NCBI GenBank assembly: GCA_937961455.1
Contig: CALGNN010000092.1
Location: 1-41,410, forward strand
Length of the DNA stretch: 41,410 nt
Direction: 5' to 3'
Origin: an uncultured Saprospiraceae bacterium
Lineage (GTDB): Bacteria > Bacteroidota > Bacteroidia > Chitinophagales > Saprospiraceae
The translations under genes were made by a program, and so were the position numbers. A model generated the notes under the pieces. The model was not told where the DNA came from, ran no database searches, and saw nothing but the letters and a program-made list of their open reading frames with translations. Below, piece by piece: positions 17,851 through 26,451 of the stretch (position 1 is its first letter; each line of letters starts with the position of its first letter).

Positions 17851-18573
17851 TTATCGGTTAATCAACTTTTTGTTTTGACTTGCTGATAAAACGGCAGGGT
17901 CACCTTGTACGTTTCTTAAAAATTTGTAGGGACCGACTAATGTTTCATCAAAGCTGATCAACCACATATTTTTAGAAGCGTCTATTTCTTTTTTAAGTTT
18001 TGCTCCGACTCCTGAATAGGCTTTAATCCATTCTTCGGCATCAGTTCCTTCTTTAAATTGTACTAGGAGTTGATTGCTTATTTCTGAAGTTTCATATCCT
18101 CCAGTATTTTTTGGATCAGAAATTTTTGTCCATTGTGCCTCTCGATTGATTTTTTCTAACCAATTAACTAGTTCGACTAAATCTTTTGGCAGTCCACCCA
18201 TCCAAGATACAGAGAGTGAAGGATTTGGAACTTCATAAACAAAATGTGTACTCGATCCATCTGCAACATTATCTGGTGGTCTTTTTGACAATGCGACCAT
18301 GTCAATATTCTTTAGCTCATTTTTCACATATTTCATATCAGCTTCTGATAACTGAGTCTCATAGGTGCCCAGCTTTTTTGCGTGAGCTTTTCCATTGTAT
18401 TTCAATGTCCCGTCATTAAGGAGTGTAATACTATAAGTGGGGCAACGACCAAAGCAAGGTGACTTAGAATAAGAGAATATCTTTTCTTCAGCTTCAACTG
18501 ATTCTGAGATAGTAGTCGTCTTACAAGCTCCAAATGTGGCAAAGACTAAAAGGATCATTAAATACCTGTTCAT
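17851..18573 (-). CDS. DUF6438 lipoprotein with subtilase-propeptide-like C-terminal domain
   Basis: The lipoprotein signal ends TFGAC (Cys 17), taking the ATG at 18573 as start. Residues of about 35-115 form a DUF6438 domain with the cysteine pair SPCFGRCPTYSITLLNDG and then GTYETQLSEADMKYV. The function of DUF6438 is unknown. The last ~75 residues (NQLLVQFKEGTDAEEWIKAY ... MWLISFDETLVGPYKFL ... VQGDPAVLSASQNKKL) resemble the N-terminal prodomain fold of subtilisin-like proteases, a fold also used as a protease inhibitor. No protease domain follows. Because it lies 43 bases downstream of a secreted M43 protease, an inhibitor or chaperone role is possible, but this is inference from fold and position only. 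Confidence 0.75.
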   Translation of the reverse strand: MNRYLMILLVFATFGACKTTTISESVEAEEKIFSYSKSPCFGRCPTYSITLLNDGTLKYNGKAHAKKLGTYETQLSEADMKYVKNELKNIDMVALSKRPPDNVADGSSTHFVYEVPNPSLSVSWMGGLPKDLVELVNWLEKINREAQWTKISDPKNTGGYETSEISNQLLVQFKEGTDAEEWIKAYSGVGAKLKKEIDASKNMWLISFDETLVGPYKFLRNVQGDPAVLSASQNKKLINR

Positions 18574-18616
18574 GCGCATTATTTTATATACTAAGAATAT
18601 GGTCTGCAAAATAGTT

Positions 18617-19831
18617 TCAATAAATAAGGAGTTTAAGATTTTCTTTGATTTTTTCTTGGTCTCTTACGATACAGAAGTAAATACCTTTAGCCCAACTTTG
18701 GGTTGAAAAAATAAAACTTGTACCTCGATAATTTTCTTGTTTGGCAACTAACTTTCCAGCACTATCAAAAATATATATGTGATTATTAGCGTCCTTGGAT
18801 TCCGCAATGCTGAGATTTGCACTTTGTGATAATGGGTTATAATTGATATAATATTGATCTTCCGCTGGAGGTACAGGGCCATTTAATCCCCATTCGCATT
18901 TATTTGAGTTTATCAAATCAGCTCTTTGGATTATAAATTCATCAACTCTTTGTTTTTGACCAAGGGTGAAAAAATTAAGACAAGGATCGTTTGTAAGGTC
19001 CATAAAATTCATGTACATATCTGGCGATCCACAAGATGAAGGCTCTTGCTCAGGACATCCAAAATTTGCGAGCTCTTGACTTGGAGTGTCACTCACTAAA
19101 TCATCAGCGTTGCAGTCATTATTTTCAGGTCCATGCAAGTGATACAATCCGAGATAATGGCCGATTTCATGCGTGGCAGTTCTTCCCAGTGATATGCCTT
19201 GAGGATTTTGACTAGATTCATAACGGCCAAAATATTTTGGATCTATAACGATCCCGTCTAAGGATTTGTCTGCAGTCCAAGGGAACGAAGAGCGACCCAA
19301 TAAACCTCCCATATCGGCGACCCAAATATTTAGATAAAGATTGGGATCCCATGCATCAACACCTCCTTTAGATTCTTGATGAATAATGTATTCGCTATTA
19401 TTATCACGAGCGATTCCAATGTTATCAATGTTGGTCGATTTTCTTGTTATGCCAGTAGTATAATTTCCATTTGGGTCTGTATGTGCCAAACAAAATTCAA
19501 TTTCCATATTAGCAACGAGATCTTGATATTTTTCTGGAATACTGGCTCTATTGATGGCTAAATTATTATAGTCTTCGTTGAGTACATCTATTTGAGAAGC
19601 TACACGTGCATTTGATACATTTTCCATATTTTCATGGTATATAATGTGCACCACTATCGGAATACTAATGGGTGCTCTTTGGTAAAGATCCAATGATTCA
19701 TTTGTCGGAATTTCAAGTGGAGTTTCAGCACTACACCAATAGCTTTGTTTTCCTTGAGCCTCCAAAACCTGATGGTTTGCACTAAGCAAAATCAATAAAA
19801 ACCAAATACTATAATTTTGTATCCAATGCAT
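18617..19831 (-). CDS. M43 (pappalysin-like) metalloprotease with T9SS sorting domain
   Basis: This is a predicted secreted zinc protease of the metzincin M43 family. After a signal peptide (IWFLLILLSANHQVLEAQ), the catalytic motif HEIGHYLGLYH gives His 221, Glu 222, His 225 and His 231. The Met-turn is in MYMNFMDLTND. Family features before the motif include PIVVHIIYH and VASQIDVLNEDYNN. The last ~75 residues form a T9SS type A sorting domain (HIYIFDSAGKLVAKQ, ... WAKGIYFCIV). The start at 19831 is an ATG whose T is part of the OmpA gene's TGA (TGATG), so translation is coupled; an alternative TTG lies one codon upstream. It is 43 bases upstream of the DUF6438 lipoprotein. Confidence 0.9.
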   Translation of the reverse strand: MHWIQNYSIWFLLILLSANHQVLEAQGKQSYWCSAETPLEIPTNESLDLYQRAPISIPIVVHIIYHENMENVSNARVASQIDVLNEDYNNLAINRASIPEKYQDLVANMEIEFCLAHTDPNGNYTTGITRKSTNIDNIGIARDNNSEYIIHQESKGGVDAWDPNLYLNIWVADMGGLLGRSSFPWTADKSLDGIVIDPKYFGRYESSQNPQGISLGRTATHEIGHYLGLYHLHGPENNDCNADDLVSDTPSQELANFGCPEQEPSSCGSPDMYMNFMDLTNDPCLNFFTLGQKQRVDEFIIQRADLINSNKCEWGLNGPVPPAEDQYYINYNPLSQSANLSIAESKDANNHIYIFDSAGKLVAKQENYRGTSFIFSTQSWAKGIYFCIVRDQEKIKENLKLLIY

Positions 19832-20811
19832 CAATATTGATAACGATCTAAAAATTGATATATGTCGTCGAGTTTAGGACTTAATACAATTTCAATGCGT
19901 CTGTTTCGCTTTTTTCCTTCTGCATTATCATTGGAATCAATCGGATCATAGTAGGCTCTTCCAGAAGCAGTAATACGCTTTGGGTCCACTTTAAGGATAC
20001 TTAAATACTTGACAATATTGGAAGCTCTTGAAACGCTTAGATCCCAGTTTTTCTCCGAGCTTCCGTCAGTATCTGTATGGCCTTGTACATTTACTTGGAT
20101 GTCTGGATTGTCAATTAAAACCTTAGCTACTTTTCTTATGGCGTCCTTCCCTTTATTGTTTATAGTTGTGCCACCCTTTGGGTATAGGAGTTCTTGGCTA
20201 AGTGAGATATATACTTTGCCTTCTTTTTCACTTACATTTAAATCTGCATTGGCAATCCCTATCAGCGCTTTATTCAATTTTTCTTTTAAAGATTTGAGTA
20301 TTTCAGATTGTGCGATCAGCGAATTTTTTAGTGCTTCGATTTTTTGCTCTCGCTCGTTGATGGCTTCTAATAATAATTCCTGTTTTAATGCTTCTTCTTG
20401 GAGCCTTTCACTTAGCGCCTCAAGATTTTGTTCTTTGCTTTCAAGTTCTTTCTCCTGTGCTATGAGGCGTTCGTGTATGGTGGCTCTTTGGTCTGTGGCA
20501 AATTCAACAATTTTATCTTTTCTATTATCAAGATCATCATATTTGATTTGGAGTTGATTGAATGCCCTGCGTGTATCTGTATATTTATCACTTAAATCCT
20601 TGAGAAGTTTGTCCATCTCTTTAACACCATTTTCACAATTGGATAATTCTTCTCTCAACTCCTGATTAAGAGCGTCTACTTTTTTTAATCGTAGATTTTC
20701 TGTTTCAAATAAGCTGCGCTCTTGCAAACTCAATGTATACTTCTTTTTAGAAACACATGAATAGGTAAGCACGGACCCAACTAAGATGAATAAGAAGTAG
20801 ATCTTTTTCAT
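19831..20811 (-). CDS. OmpA-family coiled-coil lipoprotein
   Basis: This protein is predicted to be an outer-membrane lipoprotein tied to peptidoglycan. With the ATG at 20811 as start, it has a lipoprotein signal ending TYSC (Cys 19). A long heptad-like coiled coil follows at about residues 25-185, rich in Glu, Lys and Leu. A C-terminal OmpA/MotB domain covers about 200-315, with peptidoglycan-binding signatures NVQGHTDTDG, LSVSRASNIVKYL and KKRNRRIEIVL. The upstream extension to 20847 would bury the signal and is rejected. It is the first gene of the minus-strand unit continuing into the M43 protease, with a TGATG overlap. A TAATTTTG promoter-like box lies 23 bases upstream. Confidence 0.92.
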   Translation of the reverse strand: MKKIYFLFILVGSVLTYSCVSKKKYTLSLQERSLFETENLRLKKVDALNQELREELSNCENGVKEMDKLLKDLSDKYTDTRRAFNQLQIKYDDLDNRKDKIVEFATDQRATIHERLIAQEKELESKEQNLEALSERLQEEALKQELLLEAINEREQKIEALKNSLIAQSEILKSLKEKLNKALIGIANADLNVSEKEGKVYISLSQELLYPKGGTTINNKGKDAIRKVAKVLIDNPDIQVNVQGHTDTDGSSEKNWDLSVSRASNIVKYLSILKVDPKRITASGRAYYDPIDSNDNAEGKKRNRRIEIVLSPKLDDIYQFLDRYQY

Positions 20812-21969: not shown

Positions 21970-22308
21970 TTACATACTTATGTCTTTGACATGATTCATC
22001 ATTTGTACTCCGTTTACTAAACTTGCTCCAGATCTAATTGCAGCAGCCACGTGGACTGCTTCCATCATCTGTTCTTCATCTGCTCCTTTTTCTAAACATC
22101 CTTTGGAGTAGGCATCGATGCAATAGGGACATTGTACGGTATGTGCAACAGCTAAAGCGATTAATGATTTTTCTCGCTGTGTCAATGCTCCTTCTTCGAA
22201 TACCGTATTATAATATTCAAAGAATTTTTTTCCCATTTCTTCTTGAAATTCTGTGATATTTCCAAACTTCTTTAGATTCTCAGGATCAAAATAATTCTTA
22301 ACTGCCAT
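21970..22308 (-). CDS. arsenosugar-associated peroxidase-like (AhpD/CMD) protein
   Basis: This 112-residue protein belongs to the carboxymuconolactone decarboxylase/AhpD group and to the subgroup that co-occurs with arsS. The redox motif is CPYCIDAYSKGC (Cys 60 and 63), preceded by REKSLIALAVAHTVQ and followed by EQMMEAVHVAAAIRSGASLVNG. AhpD-type proteins use this CxxC for thiol-disulfide or peroxidase chemistry. The arsenosugar-linked members have no firmly established reaction. It is the upstream gene of a two-gene unit with arsS (2-base gap), divergent from the pyrophosphatase-like lipoprotein gene at 22392. It is small and cytosolic, with no signal peptide. Confidence 0.9.
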   Translation of the reverse strand: MAVKNYFDPENLKKFGNITEFQEEMGKKFFEYYNTVFEEGALTQREKSLIALAVAHTVQCPYCIDAYSKGCLEKGADEEQMMEAVHVAAAIRSGASLVNGVQMMNHVKDISM

Positions 22309-22391: not shown

Positions 22392-23021
22392 ATGATACTG
22401 ACATTCAAAAGAATTAATAACTTCTTTTTCATAATTTTTGTGCTTTTCTTCTTTGCTTGTGAAAACAAGGTAAGTAGCCCGTATGGCCATTTTGAAAAGT
22501 CAAATTCTAAAAAAGAATACGAAGGGCAAGAATCATCCGTTCAAGGGGTTGTGGTAATTTCTGCTGGTAGCAATGAAATTATGCAATATGATACCACTCA
22601 AAGGAGGATTGTGAGCTTGGATAGTATGGTATCTTTTCTACCATATCCTGGTAACTATGGATTCATTTCGAGTACGGTGATGAAATCTGAAGAAGGAAAG
22701 GTTCAAGGGCCTATTCCATTGTTAATTATATCAGAGGCAATAGAGTCAGGAAAAGTTGTTCCGGTTATTCCAATTGGAGTTTTACGCACAAATGAAAACC
22801 AAAATGCTATCGAGATGGTTATAGCTATACCGGAAGATGAATCTAAGCAGACCATTAAGACAGATAACTTTGAAGATTTTATCTTGCAATACGATCCTGC
22901 TAAATTTCAAATCCAAGAATGGTTTGTGAATTATAAGGGCTATGGTAAAATTAAATTAATGGGATGGCAAGATGGTAACTATGCTTATCGTTTAATAGAT
23001 AAGTGGAAAATTAAAAATTGA
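22392..23021 (+). CDS. pyrophosphatase-fold lipoprotein, probably catalytically inactive
   Basis: This 209-residue lipoprotein (signal ending FFFAC, Cys 23) aligns with family I inorganic pyrophosphatases: FLPYPGNYGFI near 82-92, then IPIGVL and VIAIP. Compared with the E. coli enzyme, the metal-binding and catalytic residues are changed. The DGDPVDVL block is QGPIPLLI here, so Asp 65, 67 and 70 become Gln, Pro and Leu. Asp 97, Asp 102 and Lys 104 correspond to Asn, Ala and Glu, and Arg 43 to Ser. The two tyrosines of the YP.NYG block are kept. It should therefore not hydrolyse pyrophosphate in the known way; its role, perhaps binding, is open. I use the ATG at 22392 because a TTG at 22377 adds nothing. 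A FemAB/GNAT-like gene follows after 29 bases. Confidence 0.75.
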   Translation: MILTFKRINNFFFIIFVLFFFACENKVSSPYGHFEKSNSKKEYEGQESSVQGVVVISAGSNEIMQYDTTQRRIVSLDSMVSFLPYPGNYGFISSTVMKSEEGKVQGPIPLLIISEAIESGKVVPVIPIGVLRTNENQNAIEMVIAIPEDESKQTIKTDNFEDFILQYDPAKFQIQEWFVNYKGYGKIKLMGWQDGNYAYRLIDKWKIKN

Positions 23022-24372: not shown

Positions 24373-26451
24373 TTGAAAGCAAGTACCAAAAAGAAGTCTA
24401 AACGTAAATCAAATCCTTCGACTGAGATCATGTTGATGGCCTATCAAGCAATGTGTCAGGCAAAGACGTTGACAGAACTTTATGAAGAACAATTTAAACT
24501 GGTTTCAAAATATGTACATGCTACCTCCAGAGGGCATGAAGCCATTCAAATTGCGACTGGGCTTCAGTTATTTCATTATGACTATGCATTTCCTTACTAT
24601 CGAGATGATGCATTCTTATTGGCGATGGGTTCTAGCCCTTACGATTTGATGTTGCAATTACTTGCAAAGAAAGATGACCCTTTTTCTGGTGGACGGAGTT
24701 ATTATTCTCATCCGAGTATTAATGATCCTGATAAACCCAAAGTCCCACACCAATCTTCTGCAACCGGAATGCAAGCCATTCCTGCAACTGGGACCGCTAT
24801 GGGTATGGCCTACAAAGAGCGTCTTGAAATAGCCGAAAGACATGATGCTGTGGTTGTTTGCTCCATGGGTGATGCAGCAATTACCGAAGGAGAAGTTGCT
24901 GAAGCTTTTCAAATGGCTGCTTTAAAGCAACTCCCTATTTTATATTTAATTCAAGATAATGAATGGGATATTTCAGCCACAGCTGAAGAAATCAGGGCGC
25001 AAGATGCGTCAGGATACATAAAGGGATTTCATGGGGTTACCTGTCTTCAAGTCGAAGGCAATGATTTTATTGCATCCTACAATACTGTACAAAAAGCCTT
25101 GAAGATTATTAGAGAAGAGCGAAGACCTGTTTTGATTCATGCGACAGTGCCTTTGCTGAATCATCATACTTCTGGGGTGCGGATGGAATGGTATCGTCAT
25201 GATCTAGAAGAAGATCAAGCCTTGGATCCTTTTCCAATAATGGTGTCACAAATGCTTGAGGCAGGATTTACAGAAAAAGAGTTAGAAAAAATTGATGCCA
25301 AAGTGCGTGCGGATATTTTAATAGATTTTGAAAAAGCAAAAAAAGCGAAAGATCCAGAAGCCTCAGATTTATTCGATCATGTTTTTGCGCCTACAACTAT
25401 AACAGAAGAAACAGGCATTCGTATCCCAGAAGATGGAGAGGAAATCGTAATGGTAGATGCTGCATTGAAAGCTATTGAAGAACTCATGGGAGCGCACAAG
25501 GAATGTTTACTCTATGGTCAAGATGTAGGAGGAAGGTTAGGAGGGGTCTTTAGAGAAGCTGCTACACTCGCTCAAAAGTTTGGAGATGCAAGGGTATTCA
25601 ATACGGCCATTCAGGAAGCATTTATTGTTGGGTCCACCGTTGGGATGTCTGCCGTTGGATTAAAGCCGATTGTCGAAGTCCAATTTGCAGATTATATTTG
25701 GCCAGGACTCAATCAATTATTCTCAGAAGTTAGCCGTTCTTGTTTTTTATCAATGGGAAAATGGCCAGTGAGTATGATCCTCAGAGTACCTATTGGAGCT
25801 TATGGAAGTGGAGGCCCTTATCATTCGTCTAGTGTTGAATCAGTCTTATCAAATATTAGAGGAATTAAAATTGTTTATCCGAGCAATGGGGCAGACTTAA
25901 AGGGATTGATGAAAGCTGCTTACTATGATCCTAATCCTGTAGTGATTTTAGAACATAAAGGATTGTATTGGTCCAAGGTTCCAGGCACACAGTATGCAAA
26001 ATGCAAAGAACCTGCTGCTGATTACATATTACCCTTTGGGAAAGCAAATATTGTCCAAGAAGTCCATAGGGCGGATGATATAAATCAATTGAGTATTATC
26101 ACTTATGGAATGGGTGTTCACTGGGCTTTAAATGCGACAAAAGATATCAAAGATCAAGTGGAGATTATCGACTTAAGAACCATACACCCTTTAGATGAGG
26201 ATACCATTTTTGATTCAGTAAGAAAAACTTCGAGATGTTTAGTAGTAACTGAGGAGTCCGTTGATAATTCTTTTGCAAGGGCCCTTGCTGGTAAGATTCA
26301 AGAAATTTGTTTTAATGATTTAGATGCTCCGGTAATGACCATAGGATCAGAAAATGTGCCAGCTATCCCATTAAATAGCACGCTTGAAAAAGCTATGCTG
26401 CCTTCTGCAGAGAAGCTGCTAATAAAAATCAATCAGATCCTTTCTTACTGA
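24373..26451 (+). CDS. fused E1 alpha-beta thiamine-dependent ketoacid dehydrogenase
   Basis: This 692-residue protein joins the E1 alpha and beta chains of a 2-oxoacid dehydrogenase (branched-chain or related type), which decarboxylates a 2-ketoacid with thiamine diphosphate. The alpha half includes YVHATSRGHEAIQ and the cofactor motif region at 164-198: SMGDAAITEGEVAEAFQ ... YLIQDNEWDIS. The usual GDG is GDA here. The beta half begins around 355, with LYGQDVGGRLGGVFREA and later FADYIWPGLNQ and IDLRTIHPLDEDTI. The start is a TTG (24373), with a lysine-rich leader; an ATG at 24430 is an alternative and would keep the fold. No E2 or E3 gene is adjacent. Its 3' end overlaps the anti-sigma gene by 7 bases. 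Confidence 0.9.
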   Translation: MKASTKKKSKRKSNPSTEIMLMAYQAMCQAKTLTELYEEQFKLVSKYVHATSRGHEAIQIATGLQLFHYDYAFPYYRDDAFLLAMGSSPYDLMLQLLAKKDDPFSGGRSYYSHPSINDPDKPKVPHQSSATGMQAIPATGTAMGMAYKERLEIAERHDAVVVCSMGDAAITEGEVAEAFQMAALKQLPILYLIQDNEWDISATAEEIRAQDASGYIKGFHGVTCLQVEGNDFIASYNTVQKALKIIREERRPVLIHATVPLLNHHTSGVRMEWYRHDLEEDQALDPFPIMVSQMLEAGFTEKELEKIDAKVRADILIDFEKAKKAKDPEASDLFDHVFAPTTITEETGIRIPEDGEEIVMVDAALKAIEELMGAHKECLLYGQDVGGRLGGVFREAATLAQKFGDARVFNTAIQEAFIVGSTVGMSAVGLKPIVEVQFADYIWPGLNQLFSEVSRSCFLSMGKWPVSMILRVPIGAYGSGGPYHSSSVESVLSNIRGIKIVYPSNGADLKGLMKAAYYDPNPVVILEHKGLYWSKVPGTQYAKCKEPAADYILPFGKANIVQEVHRADDINQLSIITYGMGVHWALNATKDIKDQVEIIDLRTIHPLDEDTIFDSVRKTSRCLVVTEESVDNSFARALAGKIQEICFNDLDAPVMTIGSENVPAIPLNSTLEKAMLPSAEKLLIKINQILSY

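Follow-up and report, generated by a model that had tools for sequence, protein, structure and literature searches.

The locus studied here raises the question of what has become of a member of the family I pyrophosphatases (PPases), textbook examples of conserved enzymes, in which the residues of catalysis have been replaced. It lies in a stretch of DNA of 41,410 nucleotides from an uncultured Saprospiraceae bacterium, which we call the window. The original prediction, made from the letters of the sequence, described a lipoprotein with a pyrophosphatase fold that had lost its metal-binding aspartates, and suggested that it had been repurposed as a binding or structural protein. The open reading frame begins with ATG at 22392 and its stop codon ends at 23021, with coordinates and translation as first given. 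Reading of the sequence reveals the feature of a bacterial lipoprotein, i.e. a signal sequence (MILTFKRINNFFFIIFVLFFFAC) with a lipobox, FFAC (residues 20–23), whose cysteine is residue 23. The features of the locus are summarized in Table 1. Throughout, L denotes a locus, G a genome and g a genus.

Table 1. Features of the lipoprotein gene and its neighbors, in window coordinates.
Feature	Position	Strand	Basis
PPase-like lipoprotein with gutted active site, 209 aa	22392..23021	+	frame, PF00719 match, AlphaFold2 model, alignment
Signal sequence and lipobox, last residue Cys23 (codon 22458-22460)	22392..22460	+	read from sequence
V55, I63, Q65 replacing E20, K29, E31	22554..22586	+	alignment
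S78 replacing R43	22623..22625	+	alignment
Former metal loop VQGPIP replacing DGD(A/P)LD (D65, D67, D70)	22701..22718	+	alignment
E135, I140, M142 replacing D97, D102, K104	22794..22817	+	alignment
FemX-like tandem-GNAT transferase, PF13480, 406 residues	23051..24271	+	29 bp downstream, conserved neighbor
AhpD-like protein, TIGR04169, divergent upstream neighbor	21970..22308	-	family match
ArsS radical SAM protein, TIGR04167	20894..21967	-	family match

The predicted pyrophosphatase fold was borne out. The protein matches PF00719 with E = 1.6e-18 and 67.4 bits, above the curated cut-off of 23.5, with the PPase domain spanning residues 53–205, and family I PPases of the PDB match it by sequence (best E = 4.7e-12). 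As had been proposed, the structure was predicted and aligned with family I PPases, and the PPase fold was recovered. The AlphaFold2 model, calculated from an input alignment of 43 sequences, has pLDDT = 87.7 and pTM = 0.78. The best 50 rows of a Foldseek search with this model were all PPases, and alignment with PPase crystal structures by VIA-align gave Z = 20.3–22.0 with an rmsd of 2.0–3.0 Å over 149–164 residues in the 50 rows shown. By sequence and by fold, the protein belongs to a known family.

The active site was mapped by alignment of the sequence with those of E. coli Ppa and intact lipoproteins. We considered ten catalytic residues (E20, K29, E31, R43, D65, D67, D70, D97, D102 and K104), given in E. 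coli numbering. None of the ten is kept in the window protein. The five metal-binding Asp residues 65, 67, 70, 97 and 102 are replaced by V, G, P, E and I, the first three of these being V104, G106 and P109 of the former metal loop, and the substitutions originally listed for these, Lys 104 and Arg 43 are correct according to the alignment. The exchange of D97 for E135 is the only conservative change among the ten. This complete loss is not a matter of chance, since 72 of the 81 intact-type rows in the same alignment keep all ten residues; the others keep nine (two rows), eight (five) or seven (two). The intact-type rows comprise 76 of lipoprotein type and five cytosolic sequences (L055, L072, L074, L075 and L079), with subfamily-B rows excluded; those keeping seven to nine residues are four of lipoprotein type and five cytosolic, and all rows with eight are cytosolic. 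The window protein shares with E. coli Ppa and the family I PPases the sequence profile, the fold and Y51, Y55, Y141 and K142 (its Y85, Y89, Y181 and K182). However, E. coli Ppa is cytosolic and catalytic, whereas this is an apparently exported lipoprotein in which the five metal Asp residues together with E20, K29, E31, R43 and K104 are replaced. It is thus a member of family I by sequence and by fold, and judged from the alignment it would fail as an enzyme on the features examined.

A search for lipoproteins with similar catalytic losses, also proposed at the outset, provided 63 gutted homologs from the family of the window that were read. These are the window protein with L165–L184 (21 together) and L214–L255 (42); as their genomes were selected because the matches looked weak or short, the sample is non-random and gives no prevalence. 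Two cytosolic sequences (L066 and L108) and a fragment (L046) were excluded, the gutted Pontibacter sequence L039 is not among the 63, and L260 was identified after the counts. A pseudoenzyme should have lost its catalytic residues in the orthologs too, and this is what we find; the 63 rows keep none (28 rows), one (24), two (9) or three (2) of the ten. Invariant or nearly so are Cys23, Trp192 and Trp/Tyr177 (each aligned in 63/63) and Gly59 (61/63). The gutted relatives, L170 among them, have in common with the window protein the lost catalytic set, the lipobox and the core. Most are shorter and without the K29–R43 hairpin, whereas the window copy is nearly full length and among the least eroded. 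K29 and E31 fall in a gap, the hairpin being missing, in 15 of the 22 gutted rows tabulated first, and the metal loop is gapped in some. A recent pseudogene or a sequencing error is ruled out by the clean frame and by a loss common to many genomes.

The original prediction also took the lipid anchor as a sign of repurposing, and this part of it did not survive. A contig scan for relatives kept the best 80 of 494, and 54 of those 80 were translated. Most of the nearest relatives among these 54, which come from Saprospiraceae, Flavobacteriaceae and other Bacteroidota, are lipoproteins in which the motifs around EIPAGTN, GGDGDALD and D-K are intact. The relatives therefore constitute a widespread lipoprotein family with intact active sites; lipid anchoring as something new to the window gene is ruled out, and the anchor is ancestral. 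What stands of the original prediction is the PPase fold, the lost catalytic set and the lipoprotein nature of the protein. No close relative of the window gene was found, the best identity among the matches listed being 41%. Intact Bacteroidota lipoprotein PPases (such as L111, L113 and L011) resemble it, within that identity, in lipobox, length and often in their neighbors, but keep the catalytic set that it lacks. The window protein matches 212 of the 398 genomes of its own family (E 1e-5) and a profile of eight gutted sequences matches 272, with intact and cytosolic PPases counted in both cases.

Some intact-type lipoprotein PPases carry what look like early changes, namely GGDGG for GGDGD (L095 and L045) and E31D, D65E and D67E (L015). 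There is also a second intact lipoprotein type, with YLGYP..YG(M/F)IP and GGDGDPLD (L205, L206, L212, L256, L257, L042–L044, L047, L102 and L104). In the stretches read this type shows no linkage to the FemX-like gene, and genomes of genus g86 hold it plus a gutted copy elsewhere.

The model of the FemX-like neighbor (pLDDT = 85.3) has the tandem-GNAT fold. Its best structural rows are Weissella FemX and S. aureus FemA (Z about 19), and then N-myristoyltransferases (Z about 17). The fold is shared with FemABX transferases at an identity of 10–15%. According to the model the neighbor is FemX-like by fold; with N-myristoyltransferases at such a value of Z, transfer from aminoacyl-tRNA to a peptidoglycan precursor, as in FemABX enzymes, would be one candidate for its activity. 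No link of the partner gene to sulfonolipid synthesis was found in the literature searched, in the partial texts available. The transferase lacks an evident signal sequence, and we therefore do not assume direct contact between it and the lipoprotein.

At 49 of the 63 gutted loci a FemX-like gene follows immediately on the same strand; for the remaining 14 the stretch fetched contains no such gene. Among 90 intact-type loci the FemX-like gene is adjacent in 25, at 0.5–0.8 kb in 12, at 3.8 kb in one and lacking from the stretch in 52, a group that also takes in cytosolic PPases, other families and short contigs. In four of the 12 (L001, L007, L011 and L015) a second GNAT gene separates the PPase and FemX-like genes. 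With flanks of only about 1.5 kb for loci from the genome search, and with some short contigs, failure to see a partner gene in a stretch does not prove its absence. The AhpD-like divergent neighbor is found in the window, at gutted L166, L170 and L180, and at intact L008, L011, L014 and L018. Since it is common to intact and gutted loci, these are the same locus, at which the decay has occurred in place.

The FemX-like gene is present in 323 of the 398 family genomes. Forty partner loci (20 + 20) with no PPase-like neighbor listed were checked for an overlooked lipoprotein, and none was found in 39; the other, L260, has an extra gutted member at the site predicted by the neighbor gene, without Trp192. 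A hidden lipoprotein beside every partner gene is therefore ruled out. With the partner gene in so many genomes and 39 of 40 checked loci lacking a lipoprotein, the latter is an accessory and not a requirement.

Several further genes recur in the vicinity. At L266 (G012) ArsS (TIGR04167) adjoins the FemX-like gene divergently with no lipoprotein between them, possibly an empty version of the locus of the window. A fused 2-oxoacid dehydrogenase E1 component lies downstream near the FemX-like gene in the window (24373-26451). It is near that gene, in other order, in nine of 20 partner loci without a lipoprotein (L187, L190, L191, L192, L194, L195, L196, L200 and L202; in L192, whose frame is truncated, the match is confined to the transketolase domains). 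A DUF6438 protein (17851-18609 in the window) is also near the locus in L167, L174, L179, L184, L011 and L014, giving seven of 68 clustered loci, of which five are gutted. The window further encodes an M43-type metallopeptidase with a type IX secretion tail (18617-19834).

The genome of the window has one other PF00719 match (contig C218), which is intact and has no signal sequence. The 21 genomes with a gutted copy contain 17 intact PF00719 matches, i.e. two lipoproteins of another type (G179 and G242) and 15 of cytosolic type, all 15 without a signal sequence and one a fragment. None of the 17 is of the partner-linked lipoprotein type, so within these 21 genomes the gutted gene as a paralog beside an intact copy is ruled out. 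An intact PF00719 PPase was not found in six of the 21 genomes (G010, G017, G027, G072, G181 and G302), where the assembly may be incomplete or another kind of PPase present.

The neighbor gene provides an independent tree with which to follow the loss. The partner-gene tree contains 39 intact-linked loci, 49 gutted-linked loci and 20 loci without a PPase-like neighbor; it is a quick tree with SH-aLRT support only and a midpoint root, and gutted genes without a partner (genera g32 and g85, G103, G125 and Pontibacter) are absent from it. A branch with SH-aLRT 84 has 47 of the 49 gutted loci on the same side; these represent 20 genera and include the window, which pairs with G010 (support 95). 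The remaining two, L180 (G181) and L169 (G027), sit among intact loci. A single clade of all 49 is rejected with p-AU = 0.0215, with the caution that the trait itself was used to choose the group and that the tree is a quick one. The PPase tree, built with the catalytic columns removed and with the cytosolic L049 carried as intact, gives four changes for 22 gutted rows, two of them forced by well-supported branches, although it has long branches and is not relied on for counting losses. In it the main gutted set falls beside intact L011, L015, L090, L126 and L149. Gutting arose at least twice, and probably more often.

The best reading, at about even odds, is that these proteins are an old pseudoenzyme lineage that arose more than once and persists as an envelope protein without catalysis. 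The starting point would be a gene for an exported, lipid-anchored, intact family I PPase upstream of the FemX-like transferase gene. The alignment and the partner-gene tree suggest that the metal and catalytic residues were lost once in the ancestry of at least 20 genera belonging to the family of the window, and independently in some other lineages. The gene has been kept; its lipobox, barrel core and C-terminal helices stay conserved while the K29–R43 hairpin and metal loop have eroded or disappeared in most gutted relatives. The product is likely a non-hydrolytic envelope protein, held by lipid outside the cytoplasm, in which the PPase scaffold and a surface around K171, W177 and W192 might hold a partner protein or ligand. 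It may share a physiological module with the adjacent FemX-like transferase. The fuller account, in which an ancient clade of dead lipid-anchored PPases in at least 20 genera, together with independent origins, became a non-enzymatic envelope protein in a two-gene FemX-like module, is put forward tentatively, as somewhat short of an even chance. Repurposing is supported indirectly, by the 63 open frames, the lipobox Cys, the shared FemX-like neighbor (49/63) and purifying selection in close pairs.

A serious rival is that the gene is a slowly vanishing relic on which selection has relaxed; with no further need for an exported PPase activity, the gene would decay slowly and then be lost with no new function. 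We think this unlikely, if well worth weighing. Comparable loci present a series of intact, gutted and absent states, the last possibly exemplified by L266, and the partner gene often stands without a lipoprotein, as expected for such decay. Moreover the gutted proteins diverge faster than the neighbor protein. At 49 gutted loci the mean identity is 0.221 for the lipoprotein vs 0.333 for the neighbor, compared with 0.471 vs 0.349 at 13 intact loci. Yet this faster divergence would fit a less-constrained pseudoenzyme just as well. Against decay without function stand the frames that are open in 63 homologs of many genera, the invariant Cys and Trp residues, and a position 171 that is more conserved than among intact relatives (Lys/Arg in 58/63 gutted rows vs 44/81 intact-type rows). 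In genus g26 pN/pS is 0.12–0.17 in six pairs despite synonymous sites near saturation, and eight pairs from four other genera give 0.11–0.53 on a mixed scale (dN/dS, or pN/pS where saturated). These ratios appear to show purifying selection in close gutted pairs, all of genera other than that of the window, whose own copy has no match so close. Retained function is therefore favored over the relic, because the Cys and Trp are retained, many frames are open and the gutted genes are spread over 20 genera.

Alternatively, the window copy might bind phosphate or pyrophosphate without splitting it, through Y85, Y89, Y181, K182 and E135 at the metal side. All four phosphate-side residues are kept in the window protein, and D97 has become Glu. 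However, K29, R43 and K104, which make the remaining phosphate contacts in family I PPases, are gone, and the Tyr and Lys residues are lost in most gutted relatives too (Y51 is kept in 19/63, Y55 in 5/63, Y141 in 6/63 and K142 in 20/63). Such an anion holder is improbable.

Family I PPases are oligomers, and the gutted protein might act as a regulator by assembling into mixed oligomers with an intact PPase that the same cell exports; an intact exported homolog is present in only two of the 21 gutted-copy genomes (G179 and G242), which makes this very improbable. The original prediction held that other acidic residues placed in the active site would count against it; what we find of this is weak, a Glu at position 97 in the window protein and in 23 of the 63 gutted rows. 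Hydrolysis by a rebuilt active site, for which that Glu and E100 and E101 near the former metal loop might be cited, is the least credible reading, given that the five metal Asp positions hold mixed residues across the 63 gutted rows and that the hairpin or some of the loop is missing from several gutted proteins.

No pseudoenzyme branch of the family I PPases was found in the literature searched, which was available short of full texts. Related genomes offer intact, gutted and empty states at comparable loci, and this makes the family a good case for asking what remains of an enzyme once catalysis has been dropped. The automatic label 'inorganic pyrophosphatase' is probably wrong for gutted genes of this kind. 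The pairing with the FemX-like gene suggests that Saprospiraceae have an envelope module of two genes.
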